From Hymenobacter sp. GOD-10R (GTDB lineage Bacteria > Bacteroidota > Bacteroidia > Cytophagales > Hymenobacteraceae), in the NCBI RefSeq assembly GCF_035609205.1, contig NZ_CP141184.1:2694501-2758500 (forward strand): DNA of 64,000 nt. The letters are read 5' to 3'. This document shows, one piece after another, positions 10,399 to 42,629 of this stretch. The notes under the pieces were generated by a model. The model saw nothing but the letters and a program-made list of their open reading frames with translations. It was not told where the DNA came from and did no database searches. Within the stretch, counting starts at the first letter, position 1. The number at the start of each line of letters is the position of its first letter. The translations under genes and the position numbers were made by a program.

Positions 10399-10498
10399 TA
10401 GCGCGAAGCTCCGGCTTCGCGCATCGTTGAACGATTAAAGCTAGGTTCGCCCTGGGCTCAAATCGTTCAACGATGCGCAAAGCCGGAGCCTCGCGCTA
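10399..10498. repeat. Intergenic palindromic element E1
   Basis: Inverted repeat of 38 nt per arm (10399-10436 and 10461-10498) with 2 mismatches and a 24-nt spacer. The inner ends contain the core ATCGTTGAACGAT, which recurs in elements E2-E5. It sits between the doxX stop and the sigma-factor start, both leftward genes. Confidence 0.85.
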
Positions 10499-10559
10499 CA
10501 TACTATGATACTATAACTGTTCGGCTAGGTCCTAAACCTGGCCAAGCCACTGGGTTACC

Positions 10560-10928
10560 CTAGGCCACTACCGAAGCCGGCCGCCGTAGCCAGAGTACCA
10601 CGGCCAGCAGTGCCAGCAGCACCAAAGCGGGTAAACCGCCGGCCAGTCCACCCGGAATCTTCGTGGCGTGCATAATGACCGCGCCCACCATAATAATGAT
10701 TAGTCCGATGGCTGCTAAGCGGGTGAAGCGTGGAACCAGCAACCCGATACCACCGAGTAGCTCGGCCGCCCCAACAACATAAGCCAGCGCACCGGGCAGC
10801 CCCATGCTGCTGAACATCCCTACGGTAGCCGTTAGGTCGGAGAGCTTCTTGAAGCCCGAAGCAATGAATGCTAGGCCTAGCAGAACCTGTAAAATCCAGG
10901 CAATGATGTTGCGAGTGGAGGAAGACAT
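10560..10928 (-). CDS. DoxX family membrane protein
   Basis: 122 residues with four predicted membrane helices (IIAWILQVLLGLAFIASG, ALAYVVGAAELLGGIGLLV, LAAIGLIIIMVGAVIMH, ALVLLALLAVVLWL) and the DoxX pattern GxxKL near the first loop (SGFKKLSD). DoxX proteins are small membrane proteins linked to thiol/quinone redox stress. CatD in Bacillus catDE is a known relative under an HxlR-family repressor. Here the HxlR regulator gene lies directly upstream on the same strand, and the promoter carries the same 62-bp block as the azoreductase promoter, so doxX is very probably part of one quinone/electrophile-stress regulon. Confidence 0.88.
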   Translation of the reverse strand: MSSSTRNIIAWILQVLLGLAFIASGFKKLSDLTATVGMFSSMGLPGALAYVVGAAELLGGIGLLVPRFTRLAAIGLIIIMVGAVIMHATKIPGGLAGGLPALVLLALLAVVLWLRRPASVVA

Positions 10929-10994
10929 AATAACTAGAATAACGGTGAAAAGAAGACGATTCAGCCCGGCTGCTCTAGCGGCCGTTCAGTAGGC

Positions 10995-11069
10995 GCAAAG
11001 GTGGAGGCTAGGTGGTTTATTTCGACTAGTAGTTTACCAAAGGATACCGGTATCCTTCGGTAAACTACT
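10995..11069 (-). promoter_or_regulatory. Operator/promoter of doxX (copy 1 of inverted pair)
   Basis: Contains a 42-bp palindrome (11028-11069, 20 of 21 base pairs matching) centred on AGGATACCGGTATCCT. On its doxX side a further 39 nt lead to CACCTTTGC at 11003-10995, a candidate -7 region (consensus TAnnTTTG). The whole block 10995-11056 matches 11635-11574 in inverted orientation at 60 of 62 positions. Likely bound by the adjacent HxlR protein. Confidence 0.8.
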
Positions 11070-11089
11070 CTGATAGCTAGGCGTTTGCG

Positions 11090-11536
11090 CTAGCCTGCTT
11101 TCTTCACTTCCGCTGCCTTGTCCGGGTGTTCCTTGGTTAAGCGTAGTACCGAGTCCGGTTCATCGGCTGCTGTCGACGGGTGCATGATGTGGGCGCGGTG
11201 CAGCTGTCCCCACATGCGCAAAGCATCAATAACGGGGAACAGGTTCTCGCCATAGGGCGCCATAGTGTAGGTGACGGCCACCGGCACCGTTTCGGCCTCC
11301 ACGTGGCGGGTGAGTAGGCCATTCACTTCCAGCTCCTTGAGCTCTTTGCTGAGCATCTTGGCGGTGATGCCGGTCACGTCGCGTTGCAGCTGCTTGAAGC
11401 GCTTTGGGCCATCGATGAGGCCGACGATGATGGGAAGCTTCCACTTGCCGCCGAGCAAGTCGAGGGCGTCGCGCACGGAGCGCATGGCGCCGTTGCATTC
11501 TTGGGAATTTGCGGGTCGATGATAAGGCTGTAGCAT
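11090..11536 (-). CDS. HxlR family winged-helix transcriptional regulator
   Basis: A 148-residue MarR/HxlR-type DNA-binding protein. The signature SQECNGAMRSVRDALDLLGGKWKLPI (residues about 11-36) includes the conserved N-terminal cysteine (C14) that acts as the redox/electrophile sensor in relatives such as YodB, CatR and HypR. The winged helix follows (GPKRFKQLQRDVTGITAKMLSKELKELEVNGLLTR, about 43-78). It lies between doxX and an azoreductase gene, and near-identical palindromic operator blocks stand on both sides of it. In Bacillus, homologous regulators control azoreductase and DoxX-family genes in response to quinones. I infer the same role here, with autoregulation likely since copy 2 overlaps its upstream region. 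Confidence 0.92.
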   Translation of the reverse strand: MLQPYHRPANSQECNGAMRSVRDALDLLGGKWKLPIIVGLIDGPKRFKQLQRDVTGITAKMLSKELKELEVNGLLTRHVEAETVPVAVTYTMAPYGENLFPVIDALRMWGQLHRAHIMHPSTAADEPDSVLRLTKEHPDKAAEVKKAG

Positions 11537-11573
11537 GCCCTAAAGGTCGCTCTAAATCAGGTTTGTATCCTAG

Positions 11574-11635
11574 AGGATACCGGTATCCTTTGGTAAACCA
11601 CTAGCCGAAATAAACCACCTAGCCTCCACCTTTGC
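11574..11635 (+). promoter_or_regulatory. Operator/promoter of the azoreductase gene (copy 2 of inverted pair)
   Basis: A 62-bp block starting with the 16-bp perfect palindrome AGGATACCGGTATCCT and ending in CACCTTTGC. It matches the doxX promoter block (11056-10995) at 60 of 62 bases in inverted orientation, so it points toward the rightward azoreductase gene. It also lies only 37 bp upstream of the leftward HxlR start, so binding could control both. Confidence 0.8.
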
Positions 11636-11809
11636 TCGCACCAAACCAACACGAGTAGCCACTCTGAGCAGGCCTGTTGCGCGCAGGGTCTGCCCACGCT
11701 TGGCACCAACGGTTGGGATTGGGTTTTCACTAGCAGCAACCTAGGTATCCGACCTAGCCCAGCCGCACGGCACGTTGCGCTTTCTACTCTTCATTATTCC
11801 CTTTCGACC

Positions 11810-12433
11810 ATGCACATTCTGCATATAATCTCCAGTCCCCGCGGCAACGCCGCATTTAGTATTCAACTATGCAACGCCGTGATTGACAAACTGTTGGCAG
11901 CTAACCCCGGTAGCACAGTGCAGGTATACGACCTCACCAACAAGTCCTTCCCGCACATGGAAGAGGTGTACCTGCAAGCCATTAACACGCCCGCCGAGCA
12001 GCACACACCTGCCCAGCAAGACGCCGTGCGCCACTCCGACGACGCCATTGCCGCTCTGCAAGCGGCTGATACCATCGTTATTGGCGCGCCCATGTACAAC
12101 TTCGGAATTTCGTCCACGCTCAAAGCTTGGCTCGACCACATTGTGCGGGCCCGCGTCACGTTTCGCTACACCGAGCACGGGCCGCAGGGGTTGGTGGAGA
12201 ACAAGAAAGTGTACATAGTTACTTCGAGTGGAGGCATTTACTCCGAAGGACCCATGGCGAGCTATGACTTTGTGGTGCCCTATCTACGGGCCGTGCTAGG
12301 CACTCTCGGCATGACCGACTTGACGGTGGTACGGGTAGAAGGCACCGCCATTCCCGGCGTTCAGGATACCGCCATGGAGAAGGCCCTAGCTAGCATCGAC
12401 GTATCATCTGCCCCTTCGCTGGTAGAAGCGTAG
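11810..12433 (+). CDS. azoR: FMN-dependent NADH-azoreductase
   Basis: A 207-residue flavodoxin-fold oxidoreductase. The N-terminal phosphate-binding part is HIISSPRGNAAFSIQLCNAVIDKL. The family motif GAPMYNFGISSTLKAWLDHI (residues about 91-110) forms the FMN site, and TSSGGIYSEGP lines the ring. AzoR enzymes reduce azo compounds and quinones by two electrons using NADH and protect against thiol-depleting electrophiles. The promoter carries the HxlR-type palindromic block, and a strong terminator follows 14 bp after the stop, so it is a single-gene transcript under the neighbouring regulator. Confidence 0.92.
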   Translation: MHILHIISSPRGNAAFSIQLCNAVIDKLLAANPGSTVQVYDLTNKSFPHMEEVYLQAINTPAEQHTPAQQDAVRHSDDAIAALQAADTIVIGAPMYNFGISSTLKAWLDHIVRARVTFRYTEHGPQGLVENKKVYIVTSSGGIYSEGPMASYDFVVPYLRAVLGTLGMTDLTVVRVEGTAIPGVQDTAMEKALASIDVSSAPSLVEA

Positions 12434-12447
12434 TAAGCTGCTTTCCC

Positions 12448-12510
12448 AACCAAAACGGCCTGCCACAGACCAGTATTCTTGCTGGTTTGCGGCAGGCCGT
12501 TTTGGTTTTA
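12448..12510 (+). terminator. Terminator of the azoreductase gene
   Basis: Perfect 17-bp stem (AACCAAAACGGCCTGCC at 12448-12464 with 12491-12507) followed by TTTT, with a second stem (ACCAG/CTGGT) in the loop. It lies just past the stop codon at 12433. Confidence 0.85.
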
Positions 12511-12690
12511 GCGCTTGCCCAACTAGGCCAGATTTTTCCCGCTGGTCGGAATGACGTTCTTGTTTCCAAGGTCTATTGACATAGATTCTTACGCTATTAT
12601 GCGCTCAACAATGATAACCAGCTTTTATACGTTGACGCAAAATGACTAGGCCGTTGCGTTAATCCTAGCTTTTCCATTCTAGTCTTCGCT

Positions 12691-13191
12691 ATGCTAAAGT
12701 CTATCCTGTTGAATAGTAGTGCACTCGTCGCAGTAGCAATCCTGTGTAGTACTGAGGAAGCACTGGGTCAAACCAACTGCTCTGCGCCCATGCTTAAAGT
12801 ATTAAGTAATAACCAGGAAATACCTGCTACGGGCAGCGCCTTGGTACCTAGGGTCAGATTGCGCGTGACGTCGCCCGACGATTGTGCTGAACAGGGGCAC
12901 TACCGGTTCCGGAACGCGTTGATAACAGTGGTGCGCCGCGGTCGTCCTGTTATTCCCTCGATGATCGTAAATCAACCGGACGTGAACCTGGTGCCGTGGA
13001 CAAAGTATTGCCAGCCGGGCGACCATATTACCTTCTTCATTTCTTACCACGACATAGCGGTAGTAGCTGCTGATGGCTCGCTACAGCCTTACTCACTGCC
13101 CAAACGTGGAGAGATCAAAGGAGAGAAATTTGACATTCGTACTGATCAAGCGAAGGGCATCAGCTTCACGTGGCCTCTGCTGAAGCCTTAG
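12691..13191 (+). CDS. Secreted protein of unknown function
   Basis: A 166-residue protein with an N-terminal hydrophobic signal (LNSSALVAVAILCSTEEALG, cut near residue 26). Three or four cysteines (C29, C64, C107) would suit disulfides outside the cytoplasm. The middle, FRNALITVVRRGRPVIPSMIV followed by YCQPGDHITFFISYHDIAV and FDIRT, faintly recalls the C-terminal domain of GldM-like gliding proteins ('rkGrp...kpGD...f'), but the match is too weak to name. It stands alone between the azoreductase terminator and the converging fabF gene. Confidence 0.6.
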   Translation: MLKSILLNSSALVAVAILCSTEEALGQTNCSAPMLKVLSNNQEIPATGSALVPRVRLRVTSPDDCAEQGHYRFRNALITVVRRGRPVIPSMIVNQPDVNLVPWTKYCQPGDHITFFISYHDIAVVAADGSLQPYSLPKRGEIKGEKFDIRTDQAKGISFTWPLLKP

Positions 13192-13270
13192 ATTACAAGG
13201 GAGTGTTTGCTTGAAATAGCTTCACTAGTAGACGCGCATGGAGGAAAGAGCTCAGTCTGGTGACTGCGTA

Positions 13271-14524
13271 TTAATAGGTGAACTTCTTGAGGATCAATGT
13301 AGCTGTGTGACCACCAAAGCCGAAGGAGTTACTCATAGCATATTCCACCGGGCCGTAGTAGCTTTCGTTCAGCGTTAGGTTCAGTTGGCTGGCAAAGCCT
13401 GGATCTACCTGCGTCGTGTTGATGGTAGGCGGTATCACGTCTTGCTGCACAGCTTGCACGCAAGCAATAGCCTCCACCGCACCAACAGCTCCCAGCAAGT
13501 GACCCGTCATAGATTTAGTGGCACTAATGTGGAGGTGAGGCATAGGGCCAAATACTCGCTCCACGGCCCTCAGTTCACTGGCATCACCTAGCCCCGTAGA
13601 GGTAGCGTGGGCATTTAGGTAGTCGATTTGGGCCGCTTGCAGTCCGGCATCCTCCAGGGCGGCCAGCATGCTCAGGTAAGCGCCTTCGCCTTCGGGGTGC
13701 GTGCCCGTGAGGTGGTAGGCATCTGCCGCCATGCCGCCACCTACCACTTCGGCTAGGATAGGAGCACCCCGGCGGCGAGCATGCTCGTACTCTTCCAACA
13801 CCAGTGCCCCTGCGCCTTCACCCACCACGAACCCGTCGCGACTCACGTCGAAGGGACGGGAGGCGGTGGCGGGCGTGTCGTTACGGGTGGAAAGGGCGCG
13901 TAGCGCGTTGTAGGTGCCGATGCCGGTTTCGTTGATCGGTGCTTCCGAGCCACCGGAAATCAGCACGTCGGCCTTGCCCCAGCGGATATAGTTGAAGGCA
14001 TCAATCAGAGCCGTGGTGGAAGTGGCGCAGGCCGACACGGTGGCGTAGTTCAGCCCCCGCAGTCCGTGCTTGATGGAAATCACGCCCGCGGCAATGTCCA
14101 CAATCATCTTGGCGCCGAAGAAGGGATTGAAGCGCGGTGTGCCGTCGCCTAGGGCAAACTCACTGATCTGCTCCTGTAAGGTGAGCAGCCCGCCCGCGCC
14201 CGACCCCCAAATCACGCCGATGCGGTTGCGGTTCAACTGTTCGAAAGCTAGCTCAGCATGGCGAATGGCCTCATCGGCAGCCACCAGCGCGTACTGCGTA
14301 AAAGGGTCATACTTACGGATTTCAGCGCGCTCAAGGTAATTGAGCGGATCGAAGCCCTTTAGCTCGCAGGCAAAGCGGGTTTTGAATTTCGTCGCATCGA
14401 AGTGGGTGATTGGGGCGGCCCCGCTCACGCCCGCTATAAGGGCGCGGCCAAAGCTAGCGGCATCGTTGCCAATGGGCGTTAGTGCTCCCACCCCCGTCAC
14501 GACTACACGTTTTAAATCAGGCAT
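13271..14524 (-). CDS. fabF: Beta-ketoacyl-ACP synthase II (KAS II) family
   Basis: A 417-residue thiolase-fold condensing enzyme that extends acyl-ACP with malonyl-ACP. Nucleophile C166 lies in SACATS, with catalytic histidines H306 (AHATST) and H342 (KSMTGHLLG), conserved K337, and the gatekeeper/oxyanion glycine-rich loop SNSFGFGGHT near 398-407. All active-site residues are present, so it should be functional. Unusually, it is not beside acpP or other fatty-acid genes but is third in a leftward run TetR - MFS exporter - fabF (gaps 49 and 33 bp). It may be a second FabF adjusting membrane lipids or acting on a dedicated acyl chain. Its exact substrate preference cannot be read from sequence. 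Confidence 0.93.
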   Translation of the reverse strand: MPDLKRVVVTGVGALTPIGNDAASFGRALIAGVSGAAPITHFDATKFKTRFACELKGFDPLNYLERAEIRKYDPFTQYALVAADEAIRHAELAFEQLNRNRIGVIWGSGAGGLLTLQEQISEFALGDGTPRFNPFFGAKMIVDIAAGVISIKHGLRGLNYATVSACATSTTALIDAFNYIRWGKADVLISGGSEAPINETGIGTYNALRALSTRNDTPATASRPFDVSRDGFVVGEGAGALVLEEYEHARRRGAPILAEVVGGGMAADAYHLTGTHPEGEGAYLSMLAALEDAGLQAAQIDYLNAHATSTGLGDASELRAVERVFGPMPHLHISATKSMTGHLLGAVGAVEAIACVQAVQQDVIPPTINTTQVDPGFASQLNLTLNESYYGPVEYAMSNSFGFGGHTATLILKKFTY

Positions 14525-14557
14525 ATATATGCACGTAGAAAAGGAAAAAATTGGCTC

Positions 14558-16117
14558 TTAGTGGTCCGACAAGCTGACTTTCACTGGTCCGCTGCTTGGC
14601 CCTCGGCGCAACACGAGCAGCAGCAGGGGCATGGCCGCCAGAAAAAACAGGCCTACCAGCAGAAAGGCGTCGTTATAACTCTGAATGCCGGCTTGTTGAT
14701 TTACAGTTAGATCCAGCAACTGGTAGGCGCGCTGCTGTGCCTCCAGTATGGGCTGCCCCAATCGGGCAACTACCAGCTGTGTGCCGCTGGCTAAGCGCTC
14801 CGACACGGGCAGATCTGCCGCGCTCAGGTGCGTGACCAACGCGTGGCGGTGTTCGGCGAAGCGCGTCGCAAGGTAGGTATTGACAATGGCAATGCCGAAC
14901 GAGCCGCCGAGCTGGCGCATCATGTTGTTCAGGGCTGCCCCCTGGGCAATATCCTTCAGCGCCAGCCCTGATACTGCCAGCGCCGTGAGTGGCACCGTGA
15001 GCAGCGCTAGGCCCGCCCCGCGCAGAATCAAGGGAAAGTAGAAATCGTCCTTACCCGCCGTTCCATTCAGTTCGGCCATGCGCCAGCTGAAAGCGAAAAA
15101 CAGCACAAAGCCTAAGGCAATTACCACCGGAATTGGCACGCCTTTTTGCAGCGCACGGGCCGTGAGCATGAGGCAGAAGATGGCGAGCACCGCACCCGGT
15201 AGCAGTAGTAGGCCCGTGTCGAGCACCGGGAAATGTAGCAGGCGCTGGGCAAATACGGGAGTGAGGTACACCGAGGTAAATAGCCCCATGCCCGTCACGA
15301 AGGTGAGCAAGGCTGCCACCGCGAGCGTCCGGCTTTTGAGCACGCGCAGATCCACGATGGGGTGTTTCGTCGTTAGCTCCCACCAGATGAAGGCAGTCAA
15401 TCCTACCACTGCGGCCACGCTCAACTGCGTGATGTAAGGCGTTTCAAACCAGTCTTCTTCCTGTCCCCGCTCCAACACGATTTGCAAAGCCCCCACGCCC
15501 ACCACTAGCAGCAGCAGACCAAGCCAGTCCATGCGCAGGTTGGCCCGGGTGGTAGCCGCCGGCTCCGGCACCAGCAGAAACGCCGCAATAGTGACTATAA
15601 TCCCAATCGGTACATTGACCAAGAAGATCCAGTGCCAGCTCGTCACGTCCAGAATGTAGCCGCCCAGCGTAGGCCCAATGGTTGGCCCGGTGAACACGCC
15701 GATGCCGAACAAGGCACTCGCTACCCCACGCTTCTCCGGGGGAAATGCTTCAAATACAACCGTCTGGGAAGTTGACAACAAGGCCCCGCCTCCTAGGCCC
15801 TGCACGAAACGGAAGGCCACTAAGGTCCAGATATTGGTGGCCGTGCCGCACAGCGCCGAGGCGATGGTAAACAGAATGATCGAGCCAATAAAGTAGCGCC
15901 TCCGACCTAGCCTTGCCGCCAGAAAGCTGGTGATGGGAATAATGATGATGTTGGCAATGGCGTACGAGGTGATAACCCACGACGTGTCGGCCAGCGTGGC
16001 ACCTAGGTTACCGCTCATGTGCGACAGCGCCACGTTCACGATGCTGGTATCAATCAACTCCATCACGGCCGCCGCAATGACTGTGGCACACAGCAGAAAA
16101 AGGCGCAGAATACTCAT
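14558..16117 (-). CDS. DHA2 (EmrB/QacA) family MFS multidrug exporter
   Basis: A 519-residue, roughly 14-helix major facilitator of the drug:H+ antiporter-2 family. Near the N-terminus are the antiporter pattern MELIDTSIVNVALSHMSGNLG (residues about 19-39) and motif A-like LAARLGRRRYFIGS (65-78). Motif C, the antiporter signature, is seen in GIGVFTGPTIGPTLGGYIL (about 142-160). DHA2 pumps export drugs, dyes or fatty acids from the inner membrane. No EmrA-type adaptor is adjacent. A TetR operator lies 16 bp upstream of its start, so it is a direct target of the neighbouring repressor. Confidence 0.92.
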   Translation of the reverse strand: MSILRLFLLCATVIAAAVMELIDTSIVNVALSHMSGNLGATLADTSWVITSYAIANIIIIPITSFLAARLGRRRYFIGSIILFTIASALCGTATNIWTLVAFRFVQGLGGGALLSTSQTVVFEAFPPEKRGVASALFGIGVFTGPTIGPTLGGYILDVTSWHWIFLVNVPIGIIVTIAAFLLVPEPAATTRANLRMDWLGLLLLVVGVGALQIVLERGQEEDWFETPYITQLSVAAVVGLTAFIWWELTTKHPIVDLRVLKSRTLAVAALLTFVTGMGLFTSVYLTPVFAQRLLHFPVLDTGLLLLPGAVLAIFCLMLTARALQKGVPIPVVIALGFVLFFAFSWRMAELNGTAGKDDFYFPLILRGAGLALLTVPLTALAVSGLALKDIAQGAALNNMMRQLGGSFGIAIVNTYLATRFAEHRHALVTHLSAADLPVSERLASGTQLVVARLGQPILEAQQRAYQLLDLTVNQQAGIQSYNDAFLLVGLFFLAAMPLLLLVLRRGPSSGPVKVSLSDH

Positions 16118-16132
16118 GGTGAAGTTGTATTT

Positions 16133-16148
16133 TATACCAATCGGTATA
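16133..16148 (-). promoter_or_regulatory. TetR operator upstream of the MFS gene
   Basis: TATACCAATCGGTATA. Read on the minus strand with flanks it is AATATACCGATTGGTATAA, which nearly matches the site before tetR (AATATACCGTTTGGTATTA). It is 15 bp upstream of the MFS start codon. Confidence 0.78.
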
Positions 16149-16166
16149 TTTTAGAAGAAAAAAATG

Positions 16167-16769: not shown

Positions 16770-16783
16770 GTACGGAAACGGTG

Positions 16784-16813: not shown

Positions 16814-16835
16814 CTCGATGAAAAAGTTAACGGCA

Positions 16836-17925: not shown

Positions 17926-17931
17926 GGGCTT

Positions 17932-18981: not shown

Positions 18982-20841
18982 CTAAGCGACTTCGTTTTGA
19001 CTAGCTAGCGCCAAGGTAAACCCGAATGTGCTGCCCGTACCTAGCTCGCTCTCCACCCACAACTGCCCACCCTGGCTGGTGATAAACTCGCGGGCGATGC
19101 TCAAGCCTAACCCGGAGCCGCCTTTGTAGCCGTTTTTGTCCGGAATCTGGACGAAGCGCTGGAAGATTTTTTCCTGGTACTGCGGCGCGATGCCAGGGCC
19201 GCGGTCCTGTACCCGTACCTGCACTTGCTGCCCATCGGGGGCTAGGTCGGCGCGGATGCGAATGGCTTCTTGCTCAGGCGAGTAGCGGATGGCATTGGCC
19301 AGCAGGTTGAGCAGCACCCAGGTCGTTTTCTCGATATCGGCGCGCACGGCGGGCAGCGTTTCCGGTACTTGGATATCGAGCGTGAGCTGCTTGGGTTGGA
19401 GCTGAAGCTGGATGGTGTCGGCGGCAAACTGCACGATGTCATGGATGCGGCTGGGCTGGAAGTTGAGCTGGATGTTGCCCGATTCCAGCCGCGACACGTC
19501 GATTAGCTCGCCTACTAGCTTCAACAGGCGCTGGTTTTCGCGGTTGAGGGTAGCCAAAAGCTTCTGCTGCGCCTCGTTGATCGGGCCCACCCGCTGATCT
19601 TGCAACAGCATGAGGCTGAAGTTGATACTCGATAGGGGCGTTTTCAGCTCGTGCGATACCGTGGCCAGAAAGTTAGACTTGGCTTGGTCGAGCTTCTTAA
19701 AATCAGATACGTTGCGCAGCAGCAAGATCGAGCCCACAAACGCCTTCTTCTCCAAGGCCTCGTTGTAGGAAACCACGTCGTGCACGATGAGGCGGTAATA
19801 CAGTTCCTCGCCGCCTTGAGCTAAGGTAAGCAGCGGTGGGTCAGCCTCGCGACGATTGGCTGGCAAATCGAGGTGGCGCAGCATCTCACGGAGCAAGTCG
19901 TTTTCCTGCGCAACTTCGTCGGCGGCGCGGTTTTCAAGCTGTCCGAGCGGCAAGCCTAGCAAGTTGCTTACTACGGGATTCGCCACAATTACGCGGCGGT
20001 TTTGGTCAATCAGCAGCAGGCCTTCATCCAGGCTATTCACGATACTGACCACGCGGTTGCGCTCCGTAATTAGTTCGGCTAGGGTGGAGGTGCGGTAGTC
20101 GCGGAGTTGCAGCAGCATCTGGTTGAACGAACGCGCCACTTGGGTAAATTCGTCGTTGCCTTCTTCGGGAATGGAGGCGGTGAAGTCGTGGCGGGCGGCA
20201 TTAGCGAGGCTAGCTGTTAGCTGGCGCAACGGGGCTACCGTCGCCTCAGGCACGCTGAAAATGAACATCATCGTGAATAACACGCTGAAGGTCAGTAGGG
20301 CCACGGTGTAGCGGTTGGCTTTGGTGGCGGTTTGCTGGGCAACGACGTTCTTGCGCATCAAGGCCTGCATGTTGAGCTGCACCATGCGCGCCGTTTGTGC
20401 CCGCAGCAGTTGGTGGCGCGGTAAGATCTGTTCGAGGTAAAAGGCCGGCGTAGGGGCATTGCTGGACTGCGGATCGAGCAATAGTTGATAATCGGCAAAG
20501 GCACGCGTGAGGCTGTCTACTATTTGGCGTTCACCTACTTCGGTGATGTTGCCGGCTTCGCGGGTCAGGTTCTGGCGAAACCGTTGCAGCCCATTTTGCA
20601 GGGCAGGGGCGTAGTTGATAGATGCGGTGCCACCTAGGTAGCGCTGCTGCTCGAGAGGGGCTAGGTCGTCGAGGGCGGCAAACATCCGCTGGCCTAGCTG
20701 CACCGAGTAGAAGTTGTCTTGCAACACCATGGAGGAGGAGCGTTCCAGGCGCTTCACCGAGTACAACGCGTAGGCACTCACCCCGATGAGCATGGCCAAA
20801 ACTGCCAGAAAGCCGAGCGTAATCTTATTTTTTAGGTTCAT
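18982..20841 (-). CDS. Sensor histidine kinase (HAMP-PAS-HisKA-HATPase), kinase partner of the split KdpD
   Basis: 619 residues. TM1 is near 7-27, followed by an extracytoplasmic helical sensor region (about 30-180, four-helix-bundle-like). TM2 is near 183-205, then HAMP (about 203-257), PAS (SIVNSLDEGLLLIDQNRRVIVANPVVSNLLG, about 265-300), HisKA with phosphorylation site SHELKTP (H about 396), and HATPase with N-box LLNLLANAIRYSPE and G-boxes DRGPGIAP and GGSGLGLSIA. It lies 136 bp downstream of the KdpD N-terminal gene on the same strand, at the end of the kdp locus. In many bacteria KdpD is a single protein with both parts. Here the kinase seems to be a separate polypeptide. Its likely output is the NtrC-type regulator at 30661-32019. 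Confidence 0.9.
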   Translation of the reverse strand: MNLKNKITLGFLAVLAMLIGVSAYALYSVKRLERSSSMVLQDNFYSVQLGQRMFAALDDLAPLEQQRYLGGTASINYAPALQNGLQRFRQNLTREAGNITEVGERQIVDSLTRAFADYQLLLDPQSSNAPTPAFYLEQILPRHQLLRAQTARMVQLNMQALMRKNVVAQQTATKANRYTVALLTFSVLFTMMFIFSVPEATVAPLRQLTASLANAARHDFTASIPEEGNDEFTQVARSFNQMLLQLRDYRTSTLAELITERNRVVSIVNSLDEGLLLIDQNRRVIVANPVVSNLLGLPLGQLENRAADEVAQENDLLREMLRHLDLPANRREADPPLLTLAQGGEELYYRLIVHDVVSYNEALEKKAFVGSILLLRNVSDFKKLDQAKSNFLATVSHELKTPLSSINFSLMLLQDQRVGPINEAQQKLLATLNRENQRLLKLVGELIDVSRLESGNIQLNFQPSRIHDIVQFAADTIQLQLQPKQLTLDIQVPETLPAVRADIEKTTWVLLNLLANAIRYSPEQEAIRIRADLAPDGQQVQVRVQDRGPGIAPQYQEKIFQRFVQIPDKNGYKGGSGLGLSIAREFITSQGGQLWVESELGTGSTFGFTLALASQNEVA

Positions 20842-22141: not shown

Positions 22142-22210
22142 GAGGTGAGGTGGTGAAATAGTGTGAGATGGTGAGTGTCTCTACGGCCTCGTGGCCGAAG
22201 CCAGAACGGT

Positions 22211-22310
22211 GTAGAGACGCATACTTGCGTCTCCTCGTTGAACGACTGGTGCTAGAACGACCTAAGTAAACAACATCAGCAACGATTGAGACGCAAGTAT
22301 GCGTCTCTAC
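22211..22310. repeat. Intergenic palindromic element E2
   Basis: Perfect 23-nt arms (22211-22233 and 22288-22310, beginning GTAGAGACGCATACTTGCGT). Each arm is itself a palindrome (GAGACGCA-TACT-TGCGTCTC). The interior has CGTTGAACGA (22236-22245) and CAACATCAGCAACGA (22271-22285), shared with E3 and E4. Located between the porin and kdpD genes. Confidence 0.9.
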
Positions 22311-22346
22311 ATCAGTAAGGAGCCTGTAACGCGGCTGGTAAAGAGA

Positions 22347-23459: not shown

Positions 23460-23466
23460 GGGGAAA

Positions 23467-24067: not shown

Positions 24068-24245
24068 TTCCCCTCCTTTTTTCAAGGAGGGGTGCCCAAA
24101 GGCGGGGTGGTTATTCGTTGAACGACTTGCGTATGACCGTTCTGGCTTAGTCGCTCTTTATCAACAACATCAGCAACGACGGTCAACCACCCCAGCGGCG
24201 CCTGCGGCACCGCGTCCCCTCCTCATCTGAGGAGGGGAGCTGTCG
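24068..24245. repeat. Intergenic palindromic element E4
   Basis: Arms made of C/G-rich hairpins (CCCCTCC...GGAGGGG at 24071-24092; TCCCCTCC...GGAGGGGA at 24216-24238) plus GGGGTGGTT / AACCACCCC. The interior holds CGTTGAACGA (24116-24125) and CAACATCAGCAACGA (24165-24179), the same core as E2 and E3. It sits between kdpB and kdpC. Confidence 0.85.
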
Positions 24246-26324: not shown

Positions 26325-26492
26325 CGCCTCACCCCTAGCCCCTCTCCGAAAAGGAGAGGGGAACTAGCTCTAGTTTTTAGAAGGCTAGCTTGAAGAGGTT
26401 GAACAGCAAAGTTTTAAAGCTAAAGGCCAGGCTAGTTTTCCGCAAGCGCTTGATGCGCGCTACCTTTTCGGAGAGGGGCTAGGGGTGAGGCG
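26325..26492. repeat. Intergenic palindromic element E7
   Basis: Outer arms of 30 nt are perfect inverted copies (26325-26354 with 26463-26492; starts CGCCTCACCCCTAGCCCCTC). The left side has an extra inner hairpin (CCCCTCTCCGAAAAGGAGAGGGG) whose counterpart is lost on the right. It is the same arm type as E6 at 42439. It lies between kdpA and kdpB. Confidence 0.88.
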
Positions 26493-29983: not shown

Positions 29984-30129
29984 CCGGATTTATAATCCGG
30001 TCGTTAAGAGCTGCGGATTTGCAATCCGCCCGTCTGCGCCATTAGGTGTTTTTGTTCTGGTGCAGTTGCCCGTTTTGCGGGCGGGGATTGCAAATCCCCA
30101 TCTCGCAACAGCCGGATTACAAATCTGGC
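29984..30129. repeat. Intergenic nested-palindrome element E13
   Basis: Four short palindromes in series: CCGGATTTATAATCCGG (29984-30000), GCGGATTTGCAATCCGC (30013-30029), GGGGATTGCAAATCCCC (30083-30099) and GCCGGATTACAAATCTGGC (30111-30129). The first two together are an imperfect inverted copy of the last two. The rest of the gap 29751-30345 holds no recognisable gene. Confidence 0.8.
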
Positions 30130-32019: not shown

Positions 32020-32105
32020 AGTAGGAGTTGTTCGGAGAAAACGAGCCGCAAAGTACGGCGGAATGGTTGAGTGCGGGTGCTAGCTTTGTGGCTTCGTTGC
32101 ACGAT

Positions 32106-32332
32106 GTAGAGACACATACTTGTGTCTCCCCGTTGAACGATTCGCATGAACTAGATAGAGCACAGTAGTTTGCATCTGCTCATTGAGCGACTACAAACTG
32201 TACATGTGAGTTCTACAGGTTAGCCGAATAGGTGGTAGTGACCAACGAAATGACATTCTAGATAGAGTCGCTCTTAAAAGCAGGTAAGGCAAACAACATC
32301 AGCAACGACGAGACACAAGTATGTGTCTCTAC
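32106..32332. repeat. Intergenic palindromic element E3
   Basis: Perfect 23-nt arms (32106-32128 and 32310-32332; start GTAGAGACACATACTTGTGT). Same design as E2, but the arm reads GACACA...TGTGTC instead of GACGCA...TGCGTC, changed at all four paired places. The interior has CCGTTGAACGA (32130-32140) and CAACATCAGCAACGA (32294-32308). It lies between the divergent response-regulator and aminotransferase genes. Confidence 0.9.
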
Positions 32333-32360
32333 AAGCAAACCGATTATCATTTAACTATCC

Positions 32361-33606: not shown

Positions 33607-33706
33607 AAAGAACGTCATGCTGAGCTTGCCGAAGCATCTCTACCGCAATGGTAATCATCTACTTTGGCGCTAGAGATGCTTCGGCAAGCTCAGCATGACG
33701 TTCTTT
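33607..33706. repeat. Palindromic element E8 between convergent genes (possible two-way terminator)
   Basis: Perfect 36-nt arms (33607-33642 and 33671-33706; start AAAGAACGTCATGCTGAGCT) with a 28-nt spacer. The end TTCTTTTGTT is T-rich. It lies just after the aminotransferase stop and before the aldo/keto reductase stop. It is homologous to E9 at 40848. Confidence 0.9.
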
Positions 33707-36132: not shown

Positions 36133-36154
36133 GATTGAGCAACCTAGGTTTATT

Positions 36155-37432: not shown

Positions 37433-37458
37433 AGAGGAAAGAATAGAAGATGGGAAAG

Positions 37459-38910
37459 TTAGTCTTGGTAAAGTGGTGGGGCTTTGAGCTTGAACACGTC
37501 ACGTAAGGCGCGGTTGGCGGCGTGGTAGCCGCACATGCCGTGCACGCCCCCGCCAGGCGGCGTGGCCGAGGAACAGATGTAAAGCCCTGATTTAGAAGTA
37601 CGATAAGGCGAAGCTCGCAACGCCGGCCGCGTGTACAGCTGCGCCGCATTCAGCAAGCCGCCGTTAATGTCGCCACCCACGTAGTTGGGGTTGTGCTCCT
37701 CGATCTGGGCCGTGTCGAAGGTGTGGCGGCCGATAATCCGTTCGCGGAAGCCAGGGGCAAAGCGCTCCACTTGCCGCTCGATGATGTCGGTCATATTAGC
37801 ACGGGAGCCATTCGGGACGTGGCAGTAGGCCCAGGCGGTGTGCTTGCCGGCGGGGGCGCGAGTGTCGTCGAAGAGGCTTTGCTGGGCCAGTAGCACAAAC
37901 GGCTTGCTAGGGTGCTGACCATTAGCAGCGGCTTTTTCGCTGGCGGCAATTTCGGGCAGCGTACCCCCTAGGTGCACTGTGCCGGCTTGGTGGCAATCGG
38001 CCGCCGTGAATGGAATCGGCCCGTCCAAGGCCCAATCAATCTTGTACACGCCCATTCCATATTGGTAGCGTCGTAGCTGCCATTGATAAATGGTCGAGAG
38101 GCTATGGCCTGCAATCTGAAGGAGTTGTGCCGGCGTGACATCGAGCAGCACGGCGCGGGCCTTCGGCAGCTGCGCCAGCGAGCGGACGAACGTACCCGTT
38201 TCCACCTTGCCACCTAGGGCCACAAAGTGCGCCACCAGCGCATCGGCAATACGCTGGGAGCCACCTTTTGGCAGCGGCCAGCCTTTGCGGTGGGCCGCCG
38301 TGAGTAGCACCAAACCGATGGCCGCCGTGGTGATATTTTCGAGCGGCTGAATCGAGTGGGCTGCCATGCCAGCGAATAAGCCCTTGGCTTCTTTGGTCTT
38401 GAAGCGGTTGGTGAGCGTGGTAGCCGGCAGCAGCGCCGACAAGCCAAACTGCGCCATATTAATAGGGTGCTTCGGAATGTGGAGCGGCGCCAGCACGTCG
38501 TTGGCAATGCTTGGCCAATTGGCAACCAGTGGCTCCATCAAATCGCGGTACGCCTGCTCATCCGAACCTAGCTTGCGAGCCGTTTCGGCCAGAGAATTAA
38601 GCACAACGGCCGCCGTGCCGTCATCAAAGGGGTGCGCTGCCGCGACGGGAGGTGTGATGTATTCTAAGCCATACTGCGCAAGCGGCAGCGTTTGGAAGTA
38701 AGGCGAAGCCGCCGCCAGCGGGTGAATGGCGGAGCAAATGTCGTGGTGAAAGCCCGGTAGCGTCAGCTCAGCCGTGCGCAGACCGCCACCTAGGTCCTTC
38801 TTGCCCTCAATCAGCAACACCGACAAACCGGCTTGCTGCAACACAATAGCAGCGGCCAGCCCATTCGGCCCCGAACCAACGACAACGGCATCATAATCAA
38901 AGTTATCCAT
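37459..38910 (-). CDS. Phytoene dehydrogenase-like FAD oxidoreductase (PYROXD2-like)
   Basis: A 483-residue amine-oxidase/carotenoid-desaturase fold flavoprotein. The ADP-binding GxGxxG region is VVVGSGPNGLAAAIVLQQAGLSVLLIEGKKDLGGG (about residues 10-44). A C-terminal FAD-closing segment (GLYICSSATPPGGGVHGMCGYHAANRAL) is present. The substrate side HHDICSAIHPLAAASPYF and the overall length match the NAD(P)/FAD-dependent oxidoreductases loosely named phytoene dehydrogenase-like. No other carotenoid genes are here, so carotenoid desaturation is doubtful. It lies downstream of the two DoxX-like membrane proteins and could share their redox role. Confidence 0.88.
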   Translation of the reverse strand: MDNFDYDAVVVGSGPNGLAAAIVLQQAGLSVLLIEGKKDLGGGLRTAELTLPGFHHDICSAIHPLAAASPYFQTLPLAQYGLEYITPPVAAAHPFDDGTAAVVLNSLAETARKLGSDEQAYRDLMEPLVANWPSIANDVLAPLHIPKHPINMAQFGLSALLPATTLTNRFKTKEAKGLFAGMAAHSIQPLENITTAAIGLVLLTAAHRKGWPLPKGGSQRIADALVAHFVALGGKVETGTFVRSLAQLPKARAVLLDVTPAQLLQIAGHSLSTIYQWQLRRYQYGMGVYKIDWALDGPIPFTAADCHQAGTVHLGGTLPEIAASEKAAANGQHPSKPFVLLAQQSLFDDTRAPAGKHTAWAYCHVPNGSRANMTDIIERQVERFAPGFRERIIGRHTFDTAQIEEHNPNYVGGDINGGLLNAAQLYTRPALRASPYRTSKSGLYICSSATPPGGGVHGMCGYHAANRALRDVFKLKAPPLYQD

Positions 38911-38977
38911 GGAGTGATGAAGAAGCTCTGCGGCTGTTTTTTAGCGCCGAGCTTAGTAGAGTGAGAGAGTTGAACGG

Positions 38978-39109
38978 CCCGGTCCGACGCTCTAGGCGTC
39001 CAACCGGTTTTCGCTGCGAAGGTCCGCGCCCTATAAACAAGGCAACTGCAACATTAGCACGAAGCTCGTTCAACGACGACCGGTCGGACGCCTAGGGCGT
39101 CGGACCGGG
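38978..39109. repeat. Intergenic palindromic element E5
   Basis: 30-nt arms (38978-39007 and 39080-39109; start CCCGGTCCGACGCTCTAGGC) with 2 mismatches. Each arm contains the near-palindrome GGACGCCTAGGGCGTC. The interior near the right arm reads CTCGTTCAACGAC, the reverse of the GTTGAACGA core of E1-E4. Located between the phytoene-dehydrogenase-like gene and the second DoxX-like gene. Confidence 0.88.
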
Positions 39110-39114
39110 GCACG

Positions 39115-40809
39115 TTAGTACTGCCCGGCCGACAACGTCGACTCCGATAAGGTGTACTTACGGTCAACTCGGTCGAGAACGACGTAGAGCGAATCTTTTT
39201 TCTCGTTGAGGCCACGCAAGATGACGTGCTTGCCGCCGTCGGTGGTCTGGTAGGTCAGAATCATATGGTTGCGCTTTTCGGGGCGTTGCTCGGCCTTGAT
39301 GCCCCGCACCCGACGCGTGCTGGAGGCGCTGGGGTTAATCTTGGCGGTTTCGTCGCCGATGTGGGCTAGGGCCGTGGGGCTGATCCACTCAGCTAGGGAG
39401 GCTTGGTATTTGGCTTGGCGCTCCGCGTCGTTGCTACCTAGGTAGCTGCCGCCGAAGTCGCCGCCGTAGCCGTTGGTGTGGGCGGCCGCAATGCTACTGC
39501 CTTTCGGGGCGCGCCGCTGGGCAACGGCTTCGTCGCGGTTGCGGCGGCCACGGCGGTCGTTGCCGGTGCGGATTTTACTTTGCAGGTACAGTGTGTGGTC
39601 GATGGTATCGGCATCGTAGTAGAACACGCGCTGGCCACCGGCCAGACCGGTCGTTTCGAAAGTGCGGTTGATGTCGCGCATGGGCGAGCCGCCGCCGTTT
39701 GAGAGGTCTAGCTTCAGGGGACGGTTTACCTTGTAGGTCAGCGTAGTCCACTTCTCAAACGTGGCCTGCTGCCACCGCACGCTGTCGAGGGGCGAGTAGG
39801 GGATGCTTTGGCCGTTGAGGCGGAACTCCGTCACGTTGTAGAGGCCGCGCAGGGCCGCCACGCCTCTTTGGGCGGGCTGCTTGTAAGGGTCGTAGGTGAA
39901 GTTCTCGTATTCGAGGTAGGTCAGGTATACCAGGAAAATACCGATGGTCGCCGTTTTCAGACCTAGCCTGGTGTAGCGCAGCCACGCCTCGCGGAACCTA
40001 GGGTAGTAGTGGTGCGGCACCGTGTACCGCTCTTTGATGAGCAGGTTATACAGGTTCGGAATATCCTGAATCATCAGAAACGCCGCTAGCAGCACGAAGT
40101 AGGAGCTATACACGTGCACGCCGCCATCATACGCAAAGTTGACGAATACAATATCGCCAAGGGCGCCGAGCAGCAAAGCCGCCCCTAGGAAGGTCGTGCG
40201 GCGGAAGAACAACAGCACGCCAGCCAGCGACTCTACTAAGCCTGTAAATACCTGATACCACGGCACGATGCCGATCTGAAGCCAAAAGATTTTCTGCGCC
40301 GTCATGTCGCCGAAGTCACTGTTCAACAGACCAATGGAAGGGTAGGGCATCTGCGTGGGGAACACCTTTGTGAAGCCAAAGCCAATGATGCCGATGCCCG
40401 CCCGGAAGCGCACAATTACGCGCAGCCAGTAGTATAGCACCTCGTATTCTTCGCGCTTGCGGTCAACCAGCGTCCAAATGATACCAATGACCAGCGCAAT
40501 ACCTAGGGCCACAAACCACTTGTCGTAGCCGAGTAGGGCCGGGGCGCCACCCTCCGTGCCGCCTGGGAGAAAGAACGTGGGCGAGAAGCGGGCAATGTCG
40601 TACACGTCGCGGTAGTGTCCGTGCAGCCAGTCAATCGTGAACAGGTTTTTGTACCACCCAAAGTCACTGGGGAGCGACATCAGCACGAAAAACGGAAAAG
40701 CAATGCGGAACAGAACGCGCTGGTACGGCTTCCAAGGGCGGCGCACCGGAGCGTCGGTGGCAGGTGCCGCAGTAGTTGGCAGCGGCGCAGTGAGGAAAGT
40801 AGGAGCCAT
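39115..40809 (-). CDS. Large DoxX-like multi-pass membrane protein with C-terminal soluble domain (paralog 2)
   Basis: 564 residues. A cytoplasmic start is followed by several helices. The DoxX-like core is VIVRFRAGIGIIGFGFTKVFPTQMPYPS, then IGIVPWYQVFTGLVESLAGVLLFFRRTTFLGAALLLGALGDIVFVNFAYDGG (about residues 125-250). A last helix lies near 310. The C-terminal ~230 residues are soluble, starting GLYNVTEFRLNGQSIPYSPLDSVRWQQATFEKW and ending VILRGLNEKKDSLYVVLDRVDRKYTL. A glycine/asparagine/arginine-rich insert (about 400-450) is absent from paralog 1. The soluble part looks like a beta-rich domain. It is linked on one strand to SusC/SusD and paralog 1. Function unknown. Confidence 0.8.
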   Translation of the reverse strand: MAPTFLTAPLPTTAAPATDAPVRRPWKPYQRVLFRIAFPFFVLMSLPSDFGWYKNLFTIDWLHGHYRDVYDIARFSPTFFLPGGTEGGAPALLGYDKWFVALGIALVIGIIWTLVDRKREEYEVLYYWLRVIVRFRAGIGIIGFGFTKVFPTQMPYPSIGLLNSDFGDMTAQKIFWLQIGIVPWYQVFTGLVESLAGVLLFFRRTTFLGAALLLGALGDIVFVNFAYDGGVHVYSSYFVLLAAFLMIQDIPNLYNLLIKERYTVPHHYYPRFREAWLRYTRLGLKTATIGIFLVYLTYLEYENFTYDPYKQPAQRGVAALRGLYNVTEFRLNGQSIPYSPLDSVRWQQATFEKWTTLTYKVNRPLKLDLSNGGGSPMRDINRTFETTGLAGGQRVFYYDADTIDHTLYLQSKIRTGNDRRGRRNRDEAVAQRRAPKGSSIAAAHTNGYGGDFGGSYLGSNDAERQAKYQASLAEWISPTALAHIGDETAKINPSASSTRRVRGIKAEQRPEKRNHMILTYQTTDGGKHVILRGLNEKKDSLYVVLDRVDRKYTLSESTLSAGQY

Positions 40810-40847
40810 TAGGATAAGAGTCTAATCAGATTTGATACTACCATCGT

Positions 40848-40940
40848 GTCATGCTGAGCGTGTCGAAGCATCTCTGCAGCTTCGTTGCAATACCATTGAT
40901 TAGCATTGCGATAGAGATGCTTCGACACGCTCAGCATGAC
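40848..40940. repeat. Intergenic palindromic element E9
   Basis: Perfect 28-nt arms (40848-40875 and 40913-40940; start GTCATGCTGAGCGTGTCGAA). Homologous to E8, but the arm has GAGCGTGTCGAAGC where E8 has GAGCTTGCCGAAGC, changed in both arms so pairing is kept. The spacer also matches E8 in reverse (CTCTA-Y-CGCAATG-S-TAATCA). Located between the two DoxX-like paralogs. Confidence 0.9.
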
Positions 40941-40959
40941 GGTCTATTTTATCAGTGCA

Positions 40960-42360
40960 TCACAGCTTCGAGCCAGCGCCGCGGCCCGTCTTGCTGGCTT
41001 CTTCGAGCAGGTATTTCTTGTTTCGCTTTTCTAGCACCACATACAGGTCTTGTCCTTGCACATCGGTGCCACTGAGGACGAGGGTATTCGCATCGGGGCG
41101 GGTCAGGTGCAGTGTCAGCTTATCAGGGCCTTCCAGTTTGTTGCGATTTTGAAGGTTGAGCGTCTGGCCGTCAGCGCTGAGCGTGTAGCCGTAATAGTGG
41201 CGACCGGCTGCGCCAGCAAATTCGTAGTTGCGGGCTAGGTCGTCGGGGTGAATGATTTCCGTATTGCTTTGGTCGAGCACGACGGGGCTGTTAGATCGAA
41301 TGCTCAGGGTGGCCCATTTTTCAAACACCACGTCTTGCCAGCGCACCGGGTCGGTAGCCGAGTAAGGATGCACCTGGCCGTTCAGCCGAAACTCGCGCAC
41401 GTTGTACAGGCCCGCCGCATTCGGCAAGCCGGCTGCCGCTGGGTAGTGGTAAGGCCCCGCGTGATACGCCGCGTAGGTTTTAGCACCATAAATCCCTACA
41501 AAGAAGAACACGAAGCCCACCTTCATCGTCAATTTAGCCGTGCGTGGCCACCCTGCCGGCAGCACCAAGCGGAAGCGGTTCGGTTGCGTGGGTTGCTCCA
41601 GGGTGAGCAGGTTGTTGAGACGGCGTAGGTCGTACCAAAGAACCAGCAGCCCTAGGGTAATTAGGTAGAAGCTGTACACGTACTCGCCGCCCTCGTAAGC
41701 TAGGTTCGAGAGGAACACGTTGCCCAAAAACGACAGCACGATAAATGCCCCGACGCTCGCCGTACGCCGATTGAGCAGCAGCAGCGCCCCCAGGATTTCT
41801 ACCAACCCCAAAAACGATTCGTACGAAGGCGTGATACCTAGGCTCAGCGAGAAGATTTTCCAGTCGCTGAGGTCGCCGTAGTGCGTGTTCAGGTGGCTGA
41901 GCGAGGGCAGCGGCGACTGCATCGGGAAGAACTTCAGGAAGCCGTACGCCAGTAGCCCCGCCGCCAAGCGGTAGCGCGCCAGCACCCGCAGCCAATAATA
42001 TAAGGTGTCGTAGTTCGTGCGAGTTTGGTCGCGCAGGCCCCACACGGCCGCTCCGACGGCCGCAATAGCCGCTATAATAGCCCAGTTGACAAAGAAATCA
42101 GGGCCGTCAAAAAAGCGGGGCGAGTAGTGCGCCAGCCGGAAAATATCACCGAACGAGAACCCCGCCCAATTGCTAATAACGTCGCGGTAATACTTCCAAT
42201 CGAGCGGCACGATTTGGAGGAAGAAGTACAGGAAAGCGAAGCGGAACAGCCCTTTCTCGAAGCTAGACCACCGATCCGGCGTCTGCGTCGGCACTGCGGA
42301 CGTCGGCGCCGCTGGGCGCTCCTGCACCGGCGTAGTTTGGAAAGACAAAGTGGTGCTCAT
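40960..42360 (-). CDS. Large DoxX-like multi-pass membrane protein with C-terminal soluble domain (paralog 1)
   Basis: 466 residues from the chosen start MSTTLSFQTT at 42360; an ATG at 42420 would add 20 residues. It shares the plan of paralog 2: the pairs YWLRVLARYRLAAGLLAYGFLKFFPMQSPLPS, FLGLVEILGALLLLNRRTASVGAFIVLSFLGNVFLSNLAYEGGEYVYS and GLYNVREFRLNGQVHPYSATDPVRWQDVVFEKWATL match the equivalent parts of the neighbour. About 8-9 membrane helices are followed by a soluble beta-rich tail with LYVVLEKRNKKYLLEE. Such proteins beside SusCD suggest a membrane redox step linked to an imported substrate. This is inference. Confidence 0.8.
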   Translation of the reverse strand: MSTTLSFQTTPVQERPAAPTSAVPTQTPDRWSSFEKGLFRFAFLYFFLQIVPLDWKYYRDVISNWAGFSFGDIFRLAHYSPRFFDGPDFFVNWAIIAAIAAVGAAVWGLRDQTRTNYDTLYYWLRVLARYRLAAGLLAYGFLKFFPMQSPLPSLSHLNTHYGDLSDWKIFSLSLGITPSYESFLGLVEILGALLLLNRRTASVGAFIVLSFLGNVFLSNLAYEGGEYVYSFYLITLGLLVLWYDLRRLNNLLTLEQPTQPNRFRLVLPAGWPRTAKLTMKVGFVFFFVGIYGAKTYAAYHAGPYHYPAAAGLPNAAGLYNVREFRLNGQVHPYSATDPVRWQDVVFEKWATLSIRSNSPVVLDQSNTEIIHPDDLARNYEFAGAAGRHYYGYTLSADGQTLNLQNRNKLEGPDKLTLHLTRPDANTLVLSGTDVQGQDLYVVLEKRNKKYLLEEASKTGRGAGSKL

Positions 42361-42438
42361 GGGTTCGAAAGAATGAGTGGAAGGAAAGGGAGTGGGTTGT
42401 GTAGAGAGGTATCGAAGCAATTTGCGTGTAGTTGGAAG

Positions 42439-42629
42439 GTCGTTCAGGCGGAGCGCCTCACCCCCCAGCCCCCTCTCCGAAAAGGAGAGGGGGAGCCTGT
42501 ACCGGTTTTATTGGCTATTCGCCCTAGTTTCGCAAAAGCCAACTGCTAGTAACCAATAGCTTAATCGACTGGCTCCCCCTCTCCTTTTCGGAGAGGGGGC
42601 TGGGGGGTGAGGCGCTCCGCCTGAACGAC
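42439..42629. repeat. Intergenic palindromic element E6 (59-bp perfect arms)
   Basis: Arms 42439-42497 and 42571-42629 are perfect reverse complements over 59 nt (start GTCGTTCAGGCGGAGCGCCT). Each contains GCGGAGCGC and CCCCCTCTCCGAAAAGGAGA hairpins. The 73-nt interior has a weaker pair (ATTGGCTATT / ACCAATAGC). Same arm type as E7. It fills nearly the whole gap between the susD stop and paralog 1. Confidence 0.95.

Follow-up and report, generated by a model that had tools for sequence, protein, structure and literature searches.

In Escherichia coli, motifs internal to bacterial interspersed mosaic elements (BIMEs), in which two repetitive extragenic palindromic (REP) sequences face each other as an inverted pair, bind integration host factor or gyrase. 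REPs of the GTAG kind, described as BIMEs or as REP doublets forming hairpins (REPINs), carry GTAG before the hairpin, stand in inverted intergenic pairs, reach many copies, and are mobilized by RAYT/TnpAREP proteins (passages of PMC3733652, PMC8266576, and PMC6006769). Passages of PMC3733652 describe both GTAG and CGTC REPs, hybrid dimers in Stenotrophomonas maltophilia, REP dimers inside other palindromes, and spacers that are conserved within REP families; sharing of spacers between families does not appear in those passages. The same source describes terminal inverted repeats (TIRs) around the genes for REP-associated tyrosine transposases (RAYTs) of Pseudomonas putida and P. fluorescens, in which degenerate GTAG-1 units are joined to unrelated hairpins in hundreds of copies. 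Here, intergenic palindromes are analyzed in a stretch of 64,000 nucleotides from Hymenobacter sp. GOD-10R (assembly GCF_035609205.1, contig NZ_CP141184.1, positions 2,694,501 to 2,758,500; hereafter the window), where one inner motif, TCGTTGAACGA, lies between arms of several unrelated kinds, designated below by letters.

The Hymenobacter elements resemble GTAG REPs in having GTAG directly ahead of the hairpin in types A (GTAGAGAC), B (GTAGCGCG), I (GTAGGAACGCGCC), and K (GTAGGGTGCG), as judged by eye, in forming many inverted intergenic pairs, and in the presence of RAYT genes flanked by their own hairpin (B and K, and the untagged E). They differ in that families unlike in stem and in RAYT have the motif in common with one another and with untagged palindromes. 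The Pseudomonas TIRs likewise combine a constant part with unrelated hairpins in many copies, but their constant part is a degenerate REP, whereas the one in Hymenobacter is an inner motif found with arms of many kinds; TCGTTGAACGA differs from the conserved motif between the inverted REPs of E. coli BIMEs by crossing REP families. No description of one motif shared across REP families was found in the open-access literature, to which the search was confined, none of the 20 listed among 140 papers containing the nine-base core GTTGAACGA appeared relevant, and the term Hymenobacter has 0 occurrences in PMC3733652, PMC6006769, and PMC12306157. With the REP/RAYT framework already described, this sharing would be the new part. 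An earlier reading made from the letters alone (the sequence-only reading) knew of no described family of this build; that stands for the sharing of the motif but not for types B and E, which behave as RAYT-linked REPs. Many of these palindromes are probably REP dimers of the BIME/REPIN type in tail-to-tail arrangement, moved by RAYTs, with a stem-independent inner module and with turnover mainly in tolerant gaps.

The motif and its arms

There are seven copies of the core GTTGAACGA in the window, where 100 shuffles gave 0.37 on average, and all five palindromes (E1–E5) for which the sequence-only reading had claimed the core contain it. Six copies lie in these palindromes (two in E1, one on each strand, and one each in E2, E3, E4, and, on the minus strand, E5); the seventh, at position 20122, is within an open reading frame (ORF; 18982-20841), outside any palindrome. 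The core extends to the 11 bases of TCGTTGAACGA, which are self-complementary (TCGTT-G-AACGA, a 5+1+5 palindrome) and occur 117 times in the 7.5-Mb genome versus 20 times for the reversed control. A second string, CAACATCAGCAACGA, claimed for E2, E3, and E4, is exact in each (at 22271, 32294, and 24165, respectively) and, with at most one mismatch, is found 42 times genome-wide versus 5 for its control. When 100 distinct TCGTTGAACGA sites out of the 117 copies were examined for inverted arms, 82 lay within arms scoring at least 14, the maximum in 300 shuffles being 11. The excess of TCGTTGAACGA is therefore mostly a property of palindromes. Equal frequency of the cores outside inverted repeats, which the sequence-only reading had named as an outcome that would refute it, is thus not what is seen. 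A chance origin of the pairing of motif and palindrome is ruled out by the shuffles and reversed-pattern controls, and a free-standing host motif is ruled out because most TCGTTGAACGA sites are inside palindromes. The core-bearing palindromes of the window, whose arms differ from element to element as had been claimed, are as follows.

10399..10498: E1, type B tail-to-tail dimer with TAGCGCGAAGCTCCGGCTTCGCGC arms, the right one having an intact GTAG tag (inverted-repeat search)
10424..10434, plus strand: left core of E1, TCGTTGAACGA
10463..10473, minus strand: right core of E1, the same motif, TCGTTGAACGA
22210..22311: E2, type A dimer with TGTAGAGACGCATACTTGCGTCTC arms (inverted-repeat search)
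22235..22245, plus strand: left core of E2, TCGTTGAACGA
22271..22285, plus strand: right core end of E2, CAACATCAGCAACGA
24068..24241, outer ends approximate: E4, type C, nested small hairpins CCCCTCC..GGAGGGG, an inner hairpin, and GGGGTGGTT
24115..24125, plus strand: left core of E4, TCGTTGAACGA
24165..24179, plus strand: right core end of E4, CAACATCAGCAACGA
32105..32333: E3, type A dimer with a 167-nt loop (inverted-repeat search)
32132..32140, plus strand: left core of E3, GTTGAACGA, preceded by CC in place of TC
32294..32308, plus strand: right core end of E3, CAACATCAGCAACGA
38978..39109: E5, type E palindrome, CCCGGTCCGACGC.. (inverted-repeat search)
39066..39076, minus strand: core of E5, TCGTTGAACGA

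E4 is not in the list of 25 inverted repeats; its arms are the small-hairpin strings, and its inner parts GGGGTGGTT and AACCACCCC pair. The general dimer build is a hairpin on each side, tags (if any) pointing outward, and an inner module whose end beside the hairpin starts with TCGTTGAACGA or TCGTTGCTGATGTTG.

In the GOD-10R genome, a sample of eight further Hymenobacter genomes, a set of named genomes, and the two syntenic relatives, 284 of 337 motif sites are armed (82/100, 40/58, 149/164, and 13/15, respectively; the named-genome sites were found with an arm-blind dimer pattern, which selects for dimers and counts both ends). Assignment by regular expression placed these 284 in types C (91), B (89), A (74), E (8), D (4), I (4), M (2), and N (2), with one each of B2, P, and Q; of the 7 left unmatched, six resemble A, B, B2, M, or Q variants, and one, at locus L116, is unique. 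In 226 of the 284, at most 8 nt separate the arm from the start of the motif. By eye, types A, B, I, and K carry GTAG, type D carries CGTC (its arms start CGTCATGCTGAGC), and C, E, M, N, and P carry no tag. The elements are not one family but about ten arm kinds with a common motif. In 230 kb of contiguous GOD-10R sequence, the core is present in A 9/9, B 4/4, C 8/8, E 1/2, D 1/9, and P 0/3 (a hand count allowing one mismatch; it includes two elements labeled Z and, in addition, E4, which the finder had missed). Because A, B, and C always come with the core and D and P seldom do, arms and core are not freely shuffled. A constant center with swappable ends, as the sequence-only reading had it, is right insofar as similar centers occur with different arms, in orthologous gaps as well, but there are about ten kinds and no free combination; its view of the whole as a modular noncoding element is supported. 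Its extension of the same build to the palindromes that it labeled E6/E7 and E13 was correct in that these are real palindromes, but all lack the core.

33607..33706: type D palindrome, CGTC-tagged, without core (E6/E7 group)
40848..40940: type D palindrome, without core (E6/E7 group)
26325..26492: type P palindrome (CACCCC..CTCTCC), without core
42439..42629: E13, type P palindrome with 62-nt arms, without core

Several variations of build were noted by the way. In the type C elements among L123-L196 (named Hymenobacter), an inner hairpin lies between AAGGAGGGG and GGGGTGGTT; by eye, its stem varies between elements and often between the arms of one element, with pairing kept. A small insert like CCGAAGGAAGGCGYWAGCC is found within B and D hairpins (L140, L172, and the G059/G050 counterpart of the palindrome at 33607). 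Locus L308 is a hybrid, with left arm and core of type A and an R-type hairpin (GCGAACTACAAAGTTCGC) as right neighbor.

Within the loops, most elements have at least 20 bases with the motif at one or both ends. In 208 loop interiors with the ends masked, GAACGA/TCGTTC occurs 24 times versus 1.6 in shuffles and CTAGG 135 times versus 7.5, with control words at 11 versus 6.8 and 8 versus 7.1; the shuffles were of single bases, and CTAG is common in the GOD-10R genome generally. As a side observation, CTAG exceeds expectation in GOD-10R and in its relatives G059 and G050 and falls below it in the loci of H. arizonensis and H. ruricola listed next. GATC is at half of expectation in the window together with L369-L377 (94 versus 186) and nearly absent from loci of H. 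arizonensis (L124, L125, L129, L133, and L136; 1 versus 78) and H. ruricola (L123, L144, L158, L160, and L182; 0 versus 80).

Integron attC sites have GTTRRRY and RYYYAAC at the outer ends of their palindrome. The GTTGAAC of the motif fits that consensus but, by inspection, sits inside the arms, at the loop, which is the wrong side, and attC was rejected. An Rfam scan of the window gave only two S-adenosylmethionine (SAM) riboswitches at gathering score, so its palindromes match no curated RNA family; the riboswitches (48241-48332, minus strand, and 48699-48813, plus strand) lie on opposite strands with about 370 bases between them. A palindrome of another kind (GGATTTATAATCC/GGATTTGCAATCC) at 29984-30128 is in the same place in both close relatives.

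RAYT genes and their flanking hairpins

The GOD-10R genome encodes at least two Y1/RAYT proteins (one by Pfam, two by protein search). The first, RAYT-B (G000:C1:1935491-1936069), scores 78 bits against NF047646 (cut-off 80) and 23.8 against Pfam Y1_Tnp (cut-off 23), and its best PDB match is TnpArep 4er8 (E 4.3e-5). Type B hairpins stand on both sides of it, each followed by GCGTTGAACGA, one mismatch off the motif; RAYT genes flanked by type B are those of loci L061/L221 and L222, and the hairpin of E1 is of the type beside the RAYT at L061. The second, RAYT-E, is a match at G000:C1:5503856-5504188, where NF047646 (58 bits) and Pfam are both under cut-off; type E hairpins, the type of E5, flank it on both sides (L251). 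A third lineage, in relatives (L268 and L269), is flanked by a type K hairpin, GTAGGGTGCGGGGC..GCCCCCGCCCG, with TCGTTGAACGG, TCGTTGAACGA, or variants following it. The L268/L269 type shares 28-30% identity with RAYT-B, and the identity between RAYT-B and RAYT-E is 28%; the match between RAYT-E and L269 spans only 22 residues, and RAYT-E has no match to L268. Because the flanks of types B and K carry the motif or a variant, hairpin families of different RAYT lineages share it, and the REP families of three RAYT lineages, together with palindromes for which no RAYT was found, have one common inner module. The link to RAYTs that the sequence-only reading advised looking for is borne out by types B and E, which flank such genes as REPs do; A and I have the tag only, and C, M, N, and P have neither and are not filed as REPs.

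A search with a single protein gave RAYT relatives at 100 places in 45 of 61 genomes of the genus; 48 of these places were usable on inspection (L248 and L253, one place at a contig end, were dropped). Flanking repeat pairs scoring at least 17, a threshold without shuffle control, occur at 26 of 29 RAYT loci, and their stems vary by locus. Type D resembles the CGTC-tagged REPs in passages of PMC3733652 in that its arms begin with CGTC, and the Hymenobacter core is present in only 1/9 of its elements (the count given above); in the 48 loci, no RAYT is flanked on both sides by D, nor by A, C, I, or P. In both L230 and L232, the distance between a type C element (near position 3010) and the RAYT gene is about 950 bases.

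The same gaps in relatives and across the genus

Much of the window has collinear counterparts in two close relatives, G059 and G050, the blocks being about 70-91% identical. E1 is present in the three genomes with the apices CTCCGG, CTCCTG, and CCTGCG, each mirrored on both arms, and in G059 its core is TCGTTGCACGA at both ends. In G059, both arms of E2 read CAATATTTTG where GOD-10R has CATACTTG, the left core is TCGTTGAACAA, and the right end, CAACATCAGCAACGA, is exact; the G050 counterpart of this gap is about 1.1 kb with a type D palindrome and no E2. Both relatives have E4, there with core TCGGTGAACGA, and E5, with the core kept, and both have other elements in the E3 gap. At 40848, G050 has an A element nested within the D palindrome. 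In two further stretches the arm kind itself changes, as judged by eye at these gaps. Gap A1 10849 has D in GOD-10R and B with core in G059, and gap 19628 has D and E, respectively, with G050 of the GOD-10R type in both. Gap 15379 has A in GOD-10R, I in G059, and a GAGACGC variant of A in G050. At gap A1 23121 (G000:C1:1657120-1657223), GOD-10R and G050 have type A and G059 type I, and both core ends, TCGTTGAACGA and (A/G)TCAGCAACGA, are common to GOD-10R and G059. L002, of type C, has an ortholog of type B in L138 of H. cavernae, with the core in both.

Genus-wide, a palindrome is present in the E2 gap of 15 of the 24 genomes recovered and in the galK-galT gap (L116; genes by Pfam) of 8 of 20 (GOD-10R included in both counts), each with at least six arm kinds by eye. 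Gaps without a palindrome, which the sequence-only reading suggested looking for as empty sites, were found: in 4 of the 24 genomes the E2 gap is only 41-63 nt long and has none. Gaps that lack an element are too dissimilar for target-site duplications, a feature of MITEs with terminal inverted repeats, to be compared cleanly. The E4 gap has a palindrome in at least 7 of 27 genomes, a lower bound because the score misses long loops (E4 of GOD-10R itself scores 10); in the control of one shuffle per gap, none reached 14.

Palindromes of any kind occupy 53 of 143 gaps in the 230 kb of GOD-10R sequence: 38 of 96 tandem, 9 of 23 convergent, and 6 of 24 divergent gaps, with genes called by a crude ORF rule. 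Because palindromes are found in tandem and divergent gaps too, convergent genes are not required, and simple terminators are ruled out as a general account.

Of 148 genomes sampled across the order, 3 had the dimer pattern, and all three belong to the 10 that represent Hymenobacter; 78 of 80 listed stretches (of 99) with the pattern in named genomes are from Hymenobacter; by eye, the matches in Prevotella and Spirosomataceae lack all of these arms. In one other genus of the family (g82), some genomes have an excess of single motifs (for example, 61 versus 1 and 58 versus 1, with 8 versus 10 in another), and no clear single-motif enrichment was seen in the four remaining genera.

Origin and turnover of the elements

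If many of the elements are REP dimers, the position of the hairpins around RAYT genes, together with what is known of TnpAREP (PMC8266576 and PMC6006769), suggests that RAYTs would cut and copy them in trans as single-stranded DNA, each RAYT lineage selecting its own stem. The inner module would be kept or reacquired and would work with any stem, and the untagged palindromes would have obtained it secondarily. By analogy with E. coli BIMEs, the module may be where the second REP pairs or where a host protein binds; we know of no protein that binds TCGTTGAACGA. Gain and loss mainly in tolerant intergenic gaps would leave different arms in different species at one gap, and template switching within a palindrome may keep its two arms alike. 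Repeated insertion into tolerant gaps explains most of the arm turnover. Among GOD-10R palindromes with an ortholog gap, compared by arm alignment, the arms are the same in 13, different in 20, and missing in 7 of 40 for G059, and 13, 12, and 3 of 28 for G050, a comparison that is biased because the arms were picked for matching each other and "different" includes borderline scores of 12-13.

That bias is one of several points that weigh against REP dimers with a stem-independent module. The center is not fully constant, the E1, E2, and E4 cores of the relatives having at least one change each (e.g. TCGTTGCACGA, TCGTTGAACAA, and TCGGTGAACGA). The type E copies that flank RAYT-E lack the core, further RAYT loci, mostly of distant groups, have flanking pairs (score at least 24) in only 5 of 19 cases (L268 and L269 among the 5), and none of the types A, C, and P directly flanks a RAYT in the 48 usable places. 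In L252 a type I hairpin with TCGTTGCACGA lies about 110 bases from the RAYT gene, and in L262 the distance between the gene and a D-like palindrome with TCGTGGAACGA is about 75 bases, in each case on one side only. Several Hymenobacter genomes have no motif excess (e.g. G032, 5 versus 7), and core-bearing gaps are not clearly kept more often than others (see below). In E. coli, moreover, the determinants recognized by TnpAREP are given in passages of PMC8266576 as tag and hairpin.

More tentatively, TCGTTGAACGA could be a stem-independent palindrome nucleus that serves the REP families of three RAYT lineages as well as the centers of single-copy and untagged palindromes, with arms replaceable at a fixed slot around an unchanged center; this stronger form we regard as possible but doubtful.

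It is rather unlikely that the hairpin itself is selected, for mRNA 3′-end protection or operon attenuation, with arm sequence irrelevant and TCGTTGAACGA a host-protein binding site. The retention of palindromes in orthologous gaps argues for such a functional slot: G059 has one in 27 of 36 gaps where GOD-10R has one and in 10 of 40 where it does not (Fisher p 2.5e-5), or 21 of 29 versus 6 of 21 (p 0.004) for nondivergent gaps of at least 100 bases, with 67 of 143 gaps left out for want of an ortholog and palindrome gaps being longer (median 199.5 versus 138). The many arm kinds in the galK-galT gap and the predominance of tandem gaps point the same way. Insertion tolerance alone, however, could keep the same gaps filled, the many genomes without a palindrome in these gaps indicate that it is dispensable, and types D and P mostly lack the motif. 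Retention is also 9 of 13 with the core and 28 of 63 without, no clear core effect, so that the keeping of gaps belongs to palindromes generally.

Snap-back synthesis, in which a 3′ end at the self-complementary TCGTTGAACGA folds back and copies upstream DNA into an inverted repeat centered on the motif, seems an improbable general origin. It would explain unique arms and exact centers: the motif is nearly the whole loop in 6 of 284 armed sites, of several arm kinds; a stretch of 22 bases in the L116 arm has no further copy in the genome, a search with up to three mismatches finding only its own two arms; arms reach 71-78 bases in L105, L110, and L327; and the E1 apex, different in three genomes, is mirrored each time. 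The commonest form, with a loop of at least 20 bases and the motif at its end or ends, is nevertheless not given by simple snap-back, and neither relative has an undoubled copy of the L116 arm (G059 has another palindrome in that gap and G050 a weaker one, score 11). Within the account by REP dimers, the module could still seed some palindromes in this manner.

Arm exchange by recombination between elements within the common core, proposed by the sequence-only reading, is very unlikely. The shared core ends under different arms at gap A1 23121 and the hybrid L308 would fit it, but the core middle differs at that gap, and a single crossover should give hybrids, of which one was noticed by eye, with no systematic scan, among 58 sites sampled from other genomes. 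Repeated insertion into the same gaps would also give this picture.

A motif common to families with different transposases offers a handle on how REP dimers arise and why these sequences so often come as inverted pairs, for it can be deleted or moved between hairpins in a bacterium that is not a pathogen. Should it be a true nucleus, the recognition of the stem and the formation of the dimer, treated as one thing in thinking about REPs, would be separate. The gaps that hold differing palindromes in related species form a natural replacement series for asking whether intergenic hairpins are selected or tolerated.

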